From IMG/VR virus record IMGVR_UViG_3300047550_003446, positions 1 through 20,077 of that record: a DNA stretch of 20,077 nucleotides; one strand, 5' to 3'. The notes beneath the pieces were generated by a model. The model saw only the letters and a program-made list of their open reading frames with translations. It was not told where the DNA came from and searched no databases. Position 1 is the first letter of the stretch. Every line of letters starts with the position of its first letter. Below are positions 2,454-14,304 of the stretch, in pieces. This DNA comes from a virus. The position numbers were made by a program, and so were the translations under genes.

Positions 2454-3656
2454 TCAAATTACATCATCCAACCACTTCTCCAACAACTCTCTCATTCGAG
2501 AACTGACAATACACACTTGAATCTCCTTATCGTTTCTGATAGCACTTCTCCAAATCCACTGTATCAGTTCATTCAATGCGAACTTATCAGGGTCACAGGG
2601 ATGACCATAATCATTCAAATACACAGAAACAGGTACATCCGGATATCTGTTGTACGCATGAAATAAAACTGTTTTATGGCTGTAGATATTTGTACCTTTA
2701 CACGAACTAAAAACAAAAGATTTATCAACTGAAATAACTCTACTTTTGATGTTATCAGCAAACTCTTTCTTTGTGCAAAACATGAAATCATCTGAAGATA
2801 CTTTACAGTTAACCTTAAAGGAGGTCATTGCTTTGAGTAATGAACTTCTTTGTGCTTGTGTACTGTTCTTATACCAAGAGGAACTAAGACTTGATTTAGA
2901 CTTAGATATTTTATCTACTGAAGGTGTACTTACAATCTTTAGTAGATTCTTGATATTTTGTTTTACTTCTGATTCATCCTTTAACAACCTTATACCAGTA
3001 AATGATTTATGTGTGATACCTTTGAGAGTCAAAAATGAGTGCATGATACTTCCTTCGTAGTTATATGTAAGAAGTATTACTCTACTTGCACTGGTAATTA
3101 AATCTAATGGTAGGTGCAATAGAAAGGCTTGCATTTCTCTTTTAGGTACAAACACAGCACCAATATCAGATAGATATTTTAATTTACTGAACTTATGTCC
3201 ATCTTTGATATCCCACTTCCATTGTACTCTACCAAGATTATCGTAATCTATCTCAATGAGATTTTCATCAATAAGACTTTGAAAATCAGACGAAGAGTAC
3301 TCTGTGAAAGGTGATATGAACTCTACTTCTTCATCTACAATCAAAACGTATTGTTTTTCTTTGATGTACTCTAGGTGTTCTTTACGAAGTTCAGAGAACA
3401 TCTTGTGAGTAATACAGATGTTTCTACCTTCTTGTAGGAGTTCAAGTAAATGCTTACCTTTGGTTTTGTGGTGCTCTGTAGTAGGGAATAACATGAAGAG
3501 TTCTGGACACTCACTAGGAACTCTTTCTTCAACCTCTGATAGCATCGGTGAGACATACAGGTATCGGTTGTGCGGATTGCTACGCATCCAGTTAATGATA
3601 CCTGTAGTCTTTCCTGTACCCATCAAAGAATCTACTACTTCAATGGTTTTATTCAT
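2454..3656 (-). CDS. P-loop NTPase, DEAD-like helicase family
   Basis: 400 residues. The ATG at 3656 is preferred over the in-frame ATG at 3671 because AAGGAG sits just before it. It overlaps the preceding gene by 8 nt. Walker A is MGTGKTT at residues 12-18. A DEAD-box-type Walker B (LIVDEE) is at about 105-110. The C-terminus has QWIWRSAIRNDKEI, which resembles a superfamily 2 motif VI with its arginines, then SSRMRELLEKWL. The Walker A is tight against the N-terminus, as in phage DEAD-like or origin-binding-helicase-like proteins. It probably unwinds or remodels DNA during replication. It is the last gene of the leftward operon. Confidence 0.75.
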   Translation of the reverse strand: MNKTIEVVDSLMGTGKTTGIINWMRSNPHNRYLYVSPMLSEVEERVPSECPELFMLFPTTEHHKTKGKHLLELLQEGRNICITHKMFSELRKEHLEYIKEKQYVLIVDEEVEFISPFTEYSSSDFQSLIDENLIEIDYDNLGRVQWKWDIKDGHKFSKLKYLSDIGAVFVPKREMQAFLLHLPLDLITSASRVILLTYNYEGSIMHSFLTLKGITHKSFTGIRLLKDESEVKQNIKNLLKIVSTPSVDKISKSKSSLSSSWYKNSTQAQRSSLLKAMTSFKVNCKVSSDDFMFCTKKEFADNIKSRVISVDKSFVFSSCKGTNIYSHKTVLFHAYNRYPDVPVSVYLNDYGHPCDPDKFALNELIQWIWRSAIRNDKEIQVCIVSSRMRELLEKWLDDVI

Positions 3657-6740: not shown

Positions 6741-7418
6741 TTAGTGTTTACAAAATCCCCAATACTCTTGCTCTTTTTGCATACGCCAGAGTATTGCATC
6801 AAACAGATATTCAAAAGATTTTATTTCTCTCTTTTTAATACCGTTTTCAAGTTTTTCTATCTTTGCATAATATTTTTTAGGTCTTTCGGGTCTAAAAAAT
6901 ACTCCTGTTTTTCCAGTATGAATGGAAATTTTATAGTTATTTTTATTAAAATTTTGCTCAGATATAGTTGCCCATCGACAGTTCTCCTTAAAGTAACCCA
7001 AAGAGTTATCTATTCTATCAAGAGTCAATCCTTCTTGATAAGTTGGTAACATATCTTTTTCAAAATTATCAAAAGATAACCATTCTTCACAAACAAATAT
7101 ACCTCTATTAACATAATCCCTTTGGATTTTTTCGTTTTTAACTCTATTTACAGAAGCGCGAACCATCATATCTTCCCATATTCCGTAAATTTTAGTGTAT
7201 GACTTACCGTGTGTTGTCAAAAGATTTCTGTGAACCTCAACATTCAGACAACCACAAGATTTAGTATTACCACTCATTACTGAACGAATGAAGATTTCTT
7301 TGATTTTACCACAATCGCACTTAAAATTTCCTTTCCAACGAGTTTTCCCAGATGGAAACTGGTGCTCCACCGTCTTACATATAAAGGTAAGTCTGTTGTA
7401 TTTTTCACCAGTTTCCAT
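6741..7418 (-). CDS. HNH homing endonuclease (free-standing)
   Basis: 225 residues. The ATG overlaps the phoH stop (TAATG) and no separate ribosome site is seen. A zinc-ribbon-like CDCG (residues 34-37) and SCGC (54-57) come first. The HNH core follows at about 105-150, with GLTLDRIDNSLGYFKENCRW: D134, N138 and N146 are at conserved positions of this phage HNH family. The C-terminal part (TGVFFRPERPKKYYAKI) resembles an AP2-type DNA-binding repeat. The gene sits between phoH and the ClpP-like gene, which are otherwise tightly packed, and was probably inserted there as a mobile gene. Confidence 0.85.
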   Translation of the reverse strand: METGEKYNRLTFICKTVEHQFPSGKTRWKGNFKCDCGKIKEIFIRSVMSGNTKSCGCLNVEVHRNLLTTHGKSYTKIYGIWEDMMVRASVNRVKNEKIQRDYVNRGIFVCEEWLSFDNFEKDMLPTYQEGLTLDRIDNSLGYFKENCRWATISEQNFNKNNYKISIHTGKTGVFFRPERPKKYYAKIEKLENGIKKREIKSFEYLFDAILWRMQKEQEYWGFCKH

Positions 7419-10069: not shown

Positions 10070-10621
10070 ATGCCAAAATACACATCATATAGAGAACTAC
10101 AAAGAACAGATTTAGAGAATGTATTTTTGTATGACCCCATTGAAGGGGTATTTATTAAAAGAAAAAATAATAAAAGTATAGAGTTCAAAGAATCTTATGA
10201 TGATAAGATTCCTCAGATTGACTTTAGTATACAAGGAAAGTACTACAGAATACCTGCTCATACTCTTGCTTGGGTTTTACACTTCGGGTACTTCCCTGAA
10301 GGTGTTGTACTTCACAGAGATTTAGATAAATACAATCTCAGGATTAGTAATTTACTAGATGTGTCTCAGAAGCACTACAAGGCTTTCTTGACTGCTCACA
10401 AAAATCTTAATGAGAATTGTAAGGTTCTGTTACACCCTACAGATCAGTACAAGTTCATCGTAGGTTTCTTTATAAATGGTAAGTTAAGGTACAGAGTATT
10501 CCAAGATGATATTGCAGCAAAAGAGTACATTAAAATAAAGAAGAGGCAACTTATTAGGCAAATAAGATTGTTAGGTGGTGTAATACCAGAGAACTACAAA
10601 ACAGAATTAGATTTATTGTAA
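10070..10621 (+). CDS. HNH/AP2-like putative endonuclease
   Basis: 183 residues with AGGAGG six nt before the ATG. Residues about 60-98 (PAHTLAWVLHFGYFPEGVV, then LHRDLDKYNLRISNLLDVS) follow the layout of phage HNH_3 endonucleases, where AHRLAW...G.iP.g..v.HiDg...NNR..NL is usual. Here the core is HRDLDKYNLRISN, so H, D and N are kept but the usual NN pair is only partial; activity is uncertain. The C-terminal region about 115-160 (HPTDQYKFIVGFFINGKLRY) resembles an AP2-type DNA-binding domain. It is the first rightward gene after the long structured leader. It could be a homing endonuclease or a derived DNA-binding protein. Confidence 0.6.
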   Translation: MPKYTSYRELQRTDLENVFLYDPIEGVFIKRKNNKSIEFKESYDDKIPQIDFSIQGKYYRIPAHTLAWVLHFGYFPEGVVLHRDLDKYNLRISNLLDVSQKHYKAFLTAHKNLNENCKVLLHPTDQYKFIVGFFINGKLRYRVFQDDIAAKEYIKIKKRQLIRQIRLLGGVIPENYKTELDLL

Positions 10622-11131: not shown

Positions 11132-11205
11132 GCCCCTATAGTTAAATAGCATAACAAAGGTCTTGTAAACCTTAGTCCGCGGAGCGTTACCGTGTGGGGG
11201 CACCA
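11132..11205 (+). tRNA. tRNA-Thr (anticodon UGU)
   Basis: A 74-nt cloverleaf folded by hand. The acceptor GCCCCTA pairs with TGGGGGC, with discriminator A and encoded CCA. The D stem is GTTA/TAAC. The anticodon stem is AAGGT/ACCTT with loop CTTGTAA, giving anticodon TGT. The T stem is CGCGG/CCGTG. The T loop is AGCGTTA rather than the usual TTCRANY, keeping only C56, so modification or tertiary folding may be unusual. It would read ACA threonine codons. Confidence 0.85.
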
Positions 11206-11212
11206 AGTTTAT

Positions 11213-11288
11213 GCAACTGTAGTTCAGTGAATAGAACCACGGATTTCTACTCCGTAAGTCGGGGGTTTGAATCCCTCCAGTTGCCCCA
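11213..11288 (+). tRNA. tRNA-Arg (anticodon UCU)
   Basis: A 76-nt cloverleaf. The acceptor GCAACTG pairs with CAGTTGC, with discriminator C and encoded CCA. The D stem is GTTC/GAAC. The anticodon stem is ACGGA/TCCGT with loop TTTCTAC, giving anticodon TCT. The T arm is GGGGG/CCCTC with loop TTTGAAT. It reads AGA and AGG, codons used often in this AT-rich genome (for example AGA throughout the terminase). It lies 7 nt after tRNA-Thr. Confidence 0.93.
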
Positions 11289-11291
11289 GAA

Positions 11292-11392
11292 TTTTACCTC
11301 GGGACCGTTATGTTACTAACCGCAAGGTAGGCGTGTAAAGAAACGTCAGTAGCATCCTAGAGTAAAACCGTAGGGGATGCGGTATCATCCTC
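11292..11392 (+). ncRNA. Structured RNA after the tRNA pair
   Basis: The outer stem is TTTTA (11292-11296) with TAAAA (11363-11367), continued by CTC/GAG. Inside it ATGTTACT (11310-11317) pairs with AGTAGCAT (11348-11355) over 8 bp with one wobble, and a CGC/GCG hairpin at 11321-11333 lies within. A second hairpin, GGGGATG (11373-11379) with CATCCTC (11386-11392), follows. It does not fold as a third tRNA. It could be a processed RNA, a tRNA-operon spacer structure or a new element. Confidence 0.5.
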
Positions 11393-11429
11393 ACCAAATA
11401 GATTGGAATTTGCTACTCCGATTGATAAG

Positions 11430-11460
11430 CCCTGTCTGTCCACAGGGTTTTTGGTTTTTT
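11430..11460 (+). terminator. Rho-independent terminator after the tRNA region
   Basis: CCCTGT (11430-11435), loop CTGTCC and ACAGGG (11442-11447), followed by TTTTTGGTTTTTT. It should end the tRNA transcript. The loop is also complementary to GGACAG downstream, see the leader element entry. Confidence 0.85.
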
Positions 11461-11483
11461 CTAAATTGGACAGTTTTTATAGG
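11430..11483 (+). promoter_or_regulatory. Endonuclease leader element, copy A
   Basis: The hairpin with loop CTGTCC (11436-11441) is followed, 18 nt after its 3' arm, by TTGGACAG (11466-11473) and TTTTTATAGG (11474-11483), ending 10 nt before the ATG of the HNH gene. The loop can pair with GGACAG, giving a pseudoknot-like fold. A second copy of this layout is at 19619-19669 before the GIY-YIG gene. Confidence 0.45.
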
Positions 11484-11493
11484 ACAGATAAAA

Positions 11494-12177
11494 ATGAATA
11501 ATGAAGATACTCCTGTAGATATACAGGAAATTAAGACTAAAGTTTGCAGAAAATGTGGCGTTGAAAAACCTATTGAGGAATTTAATAAAAACAAAAATCA
11601 TAAAGATGGTCTAGCAAATCAGTGTAAGGAGTGCGCTAGGCTTTATAGAATAGAGAATAAAGAAAAATCAGCAGCGTACGGAAAAGAATACAGAAAAAAT
11701 AATAAAGAAAAAGTACGGGCTAGACATAAAAAATATGTTGCTGAAAATGCTGAAAAAGTAAAGCAAAGAAAAAGAAAACATTATCTTGCTAATAAAGATA
11801 AGATAAAAAAGACAACCAAACTGTATTTAGAGAAAAATAAAGAGAAAATTTCAGAGTACAGAAAAGCCTACAAAGCAGAAAATAGGGATTTGGTAAATTT
11901 TAATACAGCGATATATAGAGCAAGAAAACTTCAGGCAACACCAAATTGGTTAACTGAAGAACAATTGGAAGAAATAAAAGATTTCTATACAATCTGTAAA
12001 ATGTTTCAAATATATACTGGTTTGACTTATCATGTCGATCACATGATACCTCTTAGGGGTGAAGATGTTTGTGGTTTACACGTGCCGTGGAATTTGCAAA
12101 TAATTGAAGCATCTGAAAATTTACAAAAAAGTAATAAATTATTAGAGGAATTTGAAAATGCCATTTATCAAGGGTGA
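11494..12177 (+). CDS. HNH endonuclease with N-terminal zinc ribbon
   Basis: 227 residues from ATG at 11494; the in-frame ATG at 11377 is rejected because it reads through the terminator. A zinc ribbon comes first: CRKCG (C18, C21) and CKEC (C44, C47). Residues about 52-135 are a Lys-rich helix of repeating NKEK...YRK units. The HNH nuclease is at the C-terminus: YHVDHMIPLRGEDVCGLHVP with H180 and H183, then WNLQIIEASENLQKSNK with the conserved Asn residues. Similar proteins are common beside phage terminase genes. Its stop overlaps the small terminase gene. It could supply the cut that moves the ORF-less intron 1 kb downstream. Confidence 0.85.
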   Translation: MNNEDTPVDIQEIKTKVCRKCGVEKPIEEFNKNKNHKDGLANQCKECARLYRIENKEKSAAYGKEYRKNNKEKVRARHKKYVAENAEKVKQRKRKHYLANKDKIKKTTKLYLEKNKEKISEYRKAYKAENRDLVNFNTAIYRARKLQATPNWLTEEQLEEIKDFYTICKMFQIYTGLTYHVDHMIPLRGEDVCGLHVPWNLQIIEASENLQKSNKLLEEFENAIYQG

Positions 12178-12517
12178 CCCTAATATTAACCGTGACGGAA
12201 GACGCCCAAAGAAAGACAAGAAGACTCCAAGACAGATTAGAAATTCTGAATTGGAGTCATTGCTTCGTAAAATCAAACCTCACGTTTCAAAAAGCATTAT
12301 GACCGCTGTTGGTATAATGGACCGTGTTGAAGACGTGTCGGATGCTTCTAAACTTAAAGCAGCTACAATTATTCTTGATCTATATAAGGATACAGTCATT
12401 AAACTGTATGATGGTCAAGATAATGAGACTGATGAGGATTTGGAAGAAGTCGAAGCAAATAAACCATTCCAAGTATTTTCTTTCGATACAGAAAAGAAAG
12501 AAGATCAATCTGAGTAA
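12158..12517 (+). CDS. terS: Putative small terminase subunit
   Basis: 119 residues from ATG at 12158. A TTG at 12152 is in frame but only 3 nt from the AGAGG site, so ATG fits better. The N-terminus FIKGDPNINRDGRRPKKDKK matches the polar GxPNxxxxGRPK opening common to small terminase and terminase-like DNA-binding proteins. A helical middle (VSKSIMTAVGIMDRVEDVSD, KAATIILDLYKDTV) would be the oligomerisation region, and the tail is acidic. The position just before the large subunit supports the call. It overlaps the HNH gene by 20 nt. Confidence 0.7.
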   Translation: MPFIKGDPNINRDGRRPKKDKKTPRQIRNSELESLLRKIKPHVSKSIMTAVGIMDRVEDVSDASKLKAATIILDLYKDTVIKLYDGQDNETDEDLEEVEANKPFQVFSFDTEKKEDQSE

Positions 12518-12576: not shown

Positions 12577-12984
12577 TTGAGTAAAACAAAAAGTACAGTA
12601 AAACAAAAATCAAAAGAACCAAAAGAAATTGTTTTTAGACCAGCATCAGAAGCACAATCACAATTTTTGAAATCTGATGCTTGGTTGACATTATATGGCG
12701 GCGCAGCATTTGCTGGCAAGTCAATGTGTCTTCTTGGTAGTATGTTACCGTTGATACCATATCCCGGTACTCGTGCTTGTGTTATTCGTAAAACAACAAA
12801 ACAACTTTCTGGTTCTGGTGGTTTGTTTGACGCAGCGATTAACTTATACAGTAAAATTGACCCTAAGATAAAAATTAAAACCAGAGACTTAACTCTTGTT
12901 TTTAGTTCTGGTGCTGAGATTCAATTTACATACCTTGATAAACCTGCGGATAGGATGAACCTTCAAGGTAGAGAATACTCCCGT
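12577..12984 (+). CDS. terL: Terminase large subunit, exon 1
   Basis: Start TTG at 12577 with TAGGAGA six nt upstream. Exon 1 encodes residues 1-136. The Walker A variant GGAAFAGKS is at 41-49, followed by ACVIRKTTKQLSGSGGLFDA and the typical MNLQGREYSR at the exon end. Unspliced RNA reads a TAA immediately after CGT (R136), so unspliced message gives only a truncated ATPase fragment. Joined to exon 2 the protein is 487 residues, a normal size for TerL. It packages DNA into proheads with the portal encoded just downstream. Confidence 0.92.
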
Positions 12985-13248
12985 TAACATTAGCGGCATT
13001 TAGTAGAAATGCTAAATGAAAACTTCCTTAATTCAGGGAAAGTCTCAAAGAGATAATCCTGAGCGAAGCCCAAAAGGGAACGTGCAACGACTATCGAAAT
13101 CACACGAAAGTGGAAGAGAGTAGAGTAGACTCAAGTGAGTCGAAATGGGAAGGTTCCTGAAAAGGAACGTGATATAGTCTAATCTCTATGGTGACATAGA
13201 GCAGCCAATAGGCGGGACGAGATTAACGACCTCGTTTGAATACCAATG
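12985..13248 (+). ncRNA. Group I intron (ORF-less, group IA-like) in terL
   Basis: 264 nt. The 5' exon ends CCGT (12981-12984) and pairs with GCGG (12993-12996), giving the U·G pair of P1. The intron ends in G (13248). Visible stems: P2 CATTTAG/CTAAATG (12997-13018); P4 TCAGG/CCTGA (13033-13037, 13058-13062); P5 TCTC/GAGA; P6 CCC/GGG (13069-13078); P7 GACTAT (13089-13094) with ATAGTC (13174-13179); extra hairpins CAC/GTG and GACTC/GAGTC; P3 CTTCC (13023-13027) with GGAAG (13148-13152); P8 GTTCC/GGAAC; P9 CTCTATG/CATAGAG with a GTGA loop. ATGTT in exon 2 can pair with AACAT in the P1 loop (P10-like). No ORF lies inside. Confidence 0.93.
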
Positions 13249-14304
13249 ATATGTTTCGACGAAGGCCAGCAATTAACAGAAGACAACGTGTTTTATGCGT
13301 TAAGTCGCTTGAGGTCAACTAGAGTACCTTACCCACGTCAAGCGGTAATTACTTGTAACCCTGACCCCGACAGTTTTCTTTTTAATTTTGTAAAGTTTAG
13401 TTTGGATGACAACTTAATTCCGATTAGACGAGAAAGTTACGATAAAAGATTTTTCTGTAGAACACCTAGCGGTATTCTTTGGTATAATACCTTAGAAGAA
13501 GCACAAGAAGTTCACGGTACTGATGAAGATTCGGGTGTTAAATCCTTTCTGTACATTCCGGGTTGTATTTACGATAACCCAATTGGTCTTGAACAAAATA
13601 AAGATTACATTGCTACACTAAAAGCACTTCCAGATGTTGAGAGAAGAAGACTTCTTGAGGGTGCTTGGGTTCGTGCTCAATTCTCTGGTTTCTTCAAAAG
13701 AGAATGGGCTAAGATGGTGTATACTCATAACTCTACAACGAGAAATAGAGTGCGCGCTTGGGACTTGGCTGCAACACTTCCTTCAGAGGTTAATCCTGAC
13801 CCTGACTGGACTGTTGGTTCACTTGTAAGTAAAACATCAAACGGCGAATACACAATTGAACACGTTGCTAGGATTCGTGATAGAACACATAAAGTAGAAG
13901 AGTTCATTTTCAATACAGCACTCATGGATGGTGAAGACGTAACAATTTGTCTACCACTAGACCCCGGTGCTTCTGGAATGGCGTATACTAGAGATTTACA
14001 AAGAAGGTTGTCAGAAAGAGGTTTCTCTGTAATGACAAAGCGACCTGACAAGTCAAAGATGATTCGTTTCAAACCATTTGCAAGTATTGCAGAAGCAGGT
14101 TTCTTATCTGTTGTAAAAGCAGACTGGAACGATATGCTTTTTAATGAACTTGAAGCATTTGACGGAACGGGAAGAATACACGACGATTCCGTCGATAGTC
14201 TTAGCGACTCTGTATGGGCACTAAACAGAACCATCCAACTCCCTGACTTTGTTCTTCCAGACTTATCTCAAGGTAACTCTCTTGCTGATATAAATAGATT
14301 TTAA
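13249..14304 (+). CDS. terL: Terminase large subunit, exon 2
   Basis: Exon 2 starts in phase 0 with ATA, so splicing gives GREYSR joined to ICFDEGQQL, a perfect Walker B with its catalytic Glu. An ATG at 13246 gives an open frame but no ribosome site precedes it, and its last base is the intron's final G. The C-terminal RNase H-like nuclease shows RAWDLAAT (D near residue 308), LPLDPGASG (near 374) and HDDSVDSLSDS (near 447-456), which hold the three acidic metal-binding positions. The TerL cuts concatemers and drives packaging. The portal gene follows after 25 nt. Confidence 0.92.
   Translation: MCFDEGQQLTEDNVFYALSRLRSTRVPYPRQAVITCNPDPDSFLFNFVKFSLDDNLIPIRRESYDKRFFCRTPSGILWYNTLEEAQEVHGTDEDSGVKSFLYIPGCIYDNPIGLEQNKDYIATLKALPDVERRRLLEGAWVRAQFSGFFKREWAKMVYTHNSTTRNRVRAWDLAATLPSEVNPDPDWTVGSLVSKTSNGEYTIEHVARIRDRTHKVEEFIFNTALMDGEDVTICLPLDPGASGMAYTRDLQRRLSERGFSVMTKRPDKSKMIRFKPFASIAEAGFLSVVKADWNDMLFNELEAFDGTGRIHDDSVDSLSDSVWALNRTIQLPDFVLPDLSQGNSLADINRF

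Follow-up and report, generated by a model that had tools for sequence, protein, structure and literature searches.

The terL gene of this viral DNA is encountered as two open pieces separated by 264 nt at the edge of the Walker B motif, which raises the question of what the intervening stretch is, whether its removal could yield one protein, and how it came to lie there. The window, by which we mean the whole stretch of DNA analyzed, is an IMG/VR virus record of 20,077 bases, a metagenomic fragment with approximately 38% G+C; a megablast search against phages returned no similar phage record for the window as a whole. Its genes include a terminase small subunit-like ORF, terL, a Mu-type portal gene and tail genes. 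The small ORF (12158-12517, + strand; phrog_3900) is placed as the terminase small subunit (terS) by position only. In terL, exon 1 (12577-12984, +) comprises 136 codons with a TTG start, carries the Walker A sequence GGAAFAGKS and matches positions 142-266 of the PHROG_979 profile. Exon 2 (13249-14304, +) begins with ICFDEGQQ (Walker B), includes the C-terminal RNase H-like nuclease domain and matches PHROG_979 positions 267-620 as well as PF17289 and PF03237. The Walker A and Walker B assignments are based on motif and invariance, and the TerL profile matched no PDB chain at E<0.01.

The Rfam group I intron family (RF00028) matched positions 12975-13201 over the full model with 90.4 bits (E 2.5e-22; gathering score 50), a value that excludes chance. 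This search, which had been proposed in a preliminary description of the sequence, confirmed that positions 12985-13248 (+) are a group I intron without ORF in terL, with exactly the coordinates given there. No ORF of 60 or more amino acids was found inside the 264 nt, and thus no homing endonuclease gene of the kind that marks a mobile group I intron.

The fold, comprising P2 to P9.2 with P7 as a pseudoknot, was drawn on an alignment of the window intron with five related introns inserted at or near the same position. Standard pairs occupy 94.6% of 354 cells, a percentage that is somewhat favoured by the structure having been drawn on the window sequence, and two-sided changes, which are unaffected by this choice in the other introns, occur in 32 of 59 pairs. 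When the 3' partners were slid by 1-3 columns as a control, 35-43% of cells were paired and only 4-7 pairs showed two-sided changes. Across the six introns, every cell of the core helices P3, P4 and P7 is paired. P3 (5' strand CUUCC, 13023-13027, +, with GGAAG at 13148-13152) carries one two-sided pair change, and P7, the guanosine-binding helix (GACUA, 13089-13093, +, with UAGUC at 13175-13179), shows a compensatory change from U-A to C-G in locus L133. The P9 hairpin (CUCUAUG/CAUAGAG, 13184-13201, +) and the P9.2 hairpin (GACGAG/CUCGUU, 13216-13236, +), the latter lying outside the Rfam model, are both 100% paired, with two-sided changes in 4/7 and 6/6 pairs, respectively. Between the 5' strand of P7 and the 3' strand of P3 lie P7.1, read from the sequence, and P7.2, which is 100% paired with two-sided changes in 5/5 pairs; these hairpins place the intron in subgroup IA, or close to it.

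Both splice sites are fixed by P1 and P10. The 5' strand of P1 (CCGU, 12981-12984, +) lies in exon 1 and pairs with GCGG (12993-12996), generating a U.G pair at the 5' splice site, and both strands are identical in all four introns found at this insertion point (site A, SR^I). P10 is formed by exon bases +3 to +7 (AUGUU, 13251-13255, +) and intron bases 2-6 (AACAU, 12986-12990); in relatives the strands read AGCUUU/AAAGUU, with a compensatory swap at +5. The intron thus combines the core of the family model, U.G in P1, a terminal G (13248) with P10, and exact exon ligation in silico, as expected of group I. The helices P1 and P2 to P9, the terminal G and the IA assignment from the P7-P3 hairpins, all read earlier from the window by itself, were recovered here.

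Exon 1 ends in ...TACTCCCGT (12984) and exon 2 starts with ATATGTTTCGACGAA (13249), the predicted ligated junction being TACTCCCGT followed by ATATGTTTC. With the intron removed in silico, ...GREYSR continues in phase 0 into ICFDEGQQ..., giving a TerL of 487 aa; its exon 1 part aligns as far as PHROG_979 position 266 (residue S135), its exon 2 part from 267 onward. Compared with TerL of Limnohabitans phage DC31 and of Pseudomonas phages PAK_P3 and phiK7A1, the spliced protein shows 42-44% identity and a gap-free junction, and intron-free relatives at approximately 62-64% identity read QGREYSRxxFDE, with no extra residues between SR and xxFDE. Read on from exon 1, the intron begins with the stop codon TAA (12985-12987). 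Hence the phase 0 junction and the immediate stop on unspliced RNA, both put forward in the preliminary description, hold, and the proposed split of Walker B holds in part: the insertion borders the motif on its 5' side, three codons ahead of the acidic D-E pair, but ICFDE lies wholly inside exon 2, so that the motif itself is neither split nor restored. Splicing, as predicted from the sequence, would connect the part of the ATPase that holds Walker A with the part that holds Walker B.

We are highly confident that this locus carries a self-splicing group I intron of IA type, which most likely moved between related phages. Splicing, as we infer it, would begin with folding of the intron in the terL transcript and binding of exogenous guanosine at P7. 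Guanosine would attack just 3' of the P1-paired U of CCCGU, and the freed 5' exon would attack after the terminal G, placed by P10, joining the exons in phase 0 into an uninterrupted TerL; failing this, translation of exon 1 would end at the TAA. The intron would persist in an ATPase motif, a place where it could hardly be cut or deleted, and it would most likely move where neighbouring freestanding endonucleases of homing type break the DNA in trans, or via recombination.

The last three intron bases (13246-13248) are ATG in frame with exon 2, as in 4/4 site A introns, probably by chance, and this leads gene callers to give exon 2 as a gene (an ORF starting MICFDEG). The intron also accounts for terL being annotated automatically in two parts in such contigs, a point of consequence since this gene widely serves as a marker in classifying phages. 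The same ATG and the reported ORF would also suit a relic that does not splice, with terL either broken or working as two pieces, the second starting at the ATG. This we consider very unlikely, since P3, P4 and P7 are fully paired in every aligned intron, P1 and P10 are kept, both exons are still open and conserved, and the introns at the two other terL sites described below lack the terminal ATG; to our knowledge, there is no precedent for separate Walker A and Walker B pieces of TerL.

The TerL clade of the window was collected by a TerL alignment scan (80 relatives) and a scan for MNxQGREY codons, and related ORF-less introns were found at three sites. Site A is occupied in four loci: the window, L121, L123 (the same contig as L059) and L127 (L062). 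Site B (D^E), 12 nt downstream, is occupied in two, L125 (L106) and L133, and here the D-E pair is truly split by the intron. The third site, in Walker A (YGG^AAFAGKS), holds introns of 213-233 nt in L121, L124 (9141-9370), L126 (1837-2069) and L128 (2664-2876). L121 holds two introns (246-461 and 744-999, oriented), such that a single gene combines a Walker A intron with a Walker B intron. In local searches the site B intron of L106 scored 49.2 bits (E 1.1e-11) and the Walker A intron of L128 67.9 bits; that of L121 scored 69.1 bits. The Walker A introns in L124, L126 and L128 escaped searches of the whole loci. Those of L124 and L126 were called by 77-81% identity to other Walker A introns, and in L124 the P7 strands GGUCA/UGACC still pair. 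Members free of introns are L117, L119, L120, L129 and L132 (near-identical), L122 (L033), L131, L037 and L038.

Since the window is one metagenomic contig, an assembly chimera or sequencing artefact could in principle produce such an insertion, a possibility that we regard as negligible: introns that are 75-78% identical and precisely bounded fill this site in three further contigs, which come from two or more other samples (3300020045, 3300048016). Two further scans were less informative. Six window-TerL peptide patterns run against viral contigs gave no matches, the patterns being too specific, and a search of DNA with a pattern for short introns that end ahead of D-E matched 27 loci with no TerL Walker B intron among them; its P7-to-exon spacing and its TNGAYGARG reading missed the relatives, and this negative was not used. 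More distant relatives bear inserts elsewhere in conserved parts of TerL: KIL1 has two, L103 and L109 carry one at approximately residue 449, in the HDDSVD region, and L043 has an intein-like one. L103 also has a second group I intron (3179-3394) in the gene after terL, in which P1 (CCCGU with AAGCGGC) is nearly that of the window's intron; it is possibly an ectopic relative. Two matches to the int-alpA RNA family flank the terminase region in L124 (8246-8313 and 12412-12479).

Intron sequences are 75-90% identical within site A, 78% within site B and 77-89% within the Walker A site, and 61-74% identical between sites. The TerL tree, calculated from residue 43 onward with introns excluded, behaves differently. 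Forcing the site A carriers together is 50 log-likelihood units worse (AU p 4e-6), and the corresponding constraints for site B and Walker A carriers are 47 (AU p 0.0015) and 162 units worse (AU p 6e-5). Thus, the introns group by site whereas the TerL tree does not, which indicates horizontal movement or repeated loss. Horizontal movement accounts most simply for the patchy distribution; repeated loss, or recombination inside terL, could also be its source. In L059 and L062, exon 1 is 85-88% and exon 2 only 48-66% identical to those of the window, which raised the possibility that exon 1 had been co-converted with the intron. This was rejected because the intron-free L033 has the same contrast (85, 67, 52%), showing that exon 1 is simply more conserved.

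The distribution also bears on the earlier suggestion that splicing ties synthesis of the packaging motor to a self-splicing RNA. Given the TAA straight after exon 1, no terL product would arise without splicing, and in this sense the suggestion stands; the intron could then act as a regulator, a splicing-dependent timing device for the motor. This regulatory sense is not borne out and we find it extremely unlikely, since close relatives without any intron occur throughout the clade.

What moved the introns, if they were mobile, may be sought next to them. A freestanding HNH-type endonuclease gene (11377-12177, +; phrog_1035, labelled endonuclease VII) lies directly upstream of the terS-like gene and is a candidate mobiliser in trans, in keeping with a freestanding endonuclease near an intron-bearing gene. 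Its homologues directly adjoin terL in L042, L044, L047, L048, L065 and L067 and lie just after terL in L046; all seven of these terL loci are intron-free. Between terS and terL there is a NUMOD4-HNH-like gene in L124 and L128 (read from the sequence), a GIY-YIG-like gene (T5orf172/MUG113, phrog_681) in L126, L033, L059 and L062, and an endonuclease remnant in L133. Across the clade loci, no single endonuclease family is exclusive to introns or accompanies all site A introns. The window holds three freestanding HNH-type genes within its 20 kb (6741-7418, -; 10070-10618, +; 11377-12177, +), the first being distantly related (32-34% aa) to HNH genes that lie next to terS in L106 and L035. Two tRNA genes (Thr-TGT, 11132-11205; Arg-TCT, 11213-11288) are located just upstream of the HNH and terminase genes, and tRNA clusters occupy the same place in relatives.

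Mobilisation in trans by such homing-endonuclease-like genes is plausible from their proximity. A more specific form, which extends the self-splicing, mobile intron set out above by naming the mover, is collaborative homing: freestanding endonucleases beside terS and terL would cleave intronless terL in one of the two Walker motifs, A or B, and the intron would protect its own genome and be copied into the break. HNH, NUMOD4-HNH-like or GIY-YIG-like genes surround terS-terL in most members, homologues of the window's HNH abut terL in the seven loci above, and a precedent exists in F-CphI, a freestanding endonuclease beside the intron-bearing psbA of phage S-PM2 that works with an ORF-less neighbour intron (PMC6083498). 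The pairing of endonuclease and intron is nonetheless inconsistent and the same families occur in several intron-free genomes (L033, L035, L042), so that we view this mover as a serious but somewhat doubtful possibility. More tentatively still, the two ATPase motifs in this TerL clade might form a shared hot spot, whose three adjacent sites would receive small ORF-less introns through the trans action of interchangeable HNH and GIY-YIG endonucleases at the terS-terL junction. The arrangement of ORF-less introns beside a cluster of freestanding endonucleases opens collaborative homing to direct testing.

Group I introns in terL are already published as a class, from phages LL-H, Moonbeam, SIOphi and KIL1, and the window intron alone would be a further example. 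The intron of Lactobacillus phage LL-H was reported by Mikkonen and Alatossava (1995, as cited in PMC4299906). It differs in its size (approximately 840 nt, with ORF168 inside) and TerL family, and the LL-H terL locus gave no RF00028 match at the gathering score. If its length is 837 nt, as we take it to be, the exons rejoin as IIAVWF^EEFANL and the site is apparently also Walker B, with the reservation that the last intron base would then be C and the assigned boundary could be one or two bases out. Pseudomonas phage KIL1 (KU130126) has RF00028 introns in a related TerL, intron 1 being 69.6% identical to the window's over 76%, but both lie in one terL at approximately residues 243 and 449 (window TerL numbering) and not in Walker A or B. 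In Bacillus phage Moonbeam the terL introns (PMC4299906) contain homing endonuclease genes, and in Bacillus phage SIOphi, whose terL intron splices in vitro (PMC11878797), the Walker B coding region is uninterrupted. Beyond terL, the bnrdE element of SPbeta, reported as an intron (PNAS 95:1692, as cited in PMC3185647), is 67% identical in DNA over 90% of the window intron, and the matched stretch has no ORF; its host gene, however, encodes ribonucleotide reductase. Pseudomonas jumbo phages (kmuB and others) have introns in an RNA polymerase subunit region that reach 72% identity over 85% of the window intron. In PhiPA3 an intron borders catalytic aspartates of a vRNAP gene (PMC11620839), but it encodes an HNH endonuclease (gp210).

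What we add here is the presence of ORF-less introns at three sites in two ATP-handling motifs within one TerL clade, a multi-site pattern of which we found no description in the literature consulted, mostly papers available without subscription. It makes terL a repeated target of mobile introns. Published statistics establish that group I introns favour conserved sites (PMC2814812); the choice of a conserved motif as homing site, suggested for the window at the outset, agrees with them and is strengthened by the three-site pattern. TerL inteins of mycobacteriophages likewise concentrate in the P-loop and Walker B (PMC5050341). They too are mobile self-splicing elements, but splice as protein instead of RNA and belong to other TerL families. 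The introns of the present clade, independent or related, occupy P-loop and Walker B codons, the motifs also chosen by inteins in other TerL families, and provide a natural replicate set for asking why splicing parasites settle in catalytic motifs. An apparent insert at TerL residue 49 in L043 was considered as an intron and rejected, as it is an in-frame, intein-like reading frame: the insert (approximately 186-1170, some 330 aa) lies in the P-loop at GK^S, starts with Ala and ends with ...VTHN before Ser.
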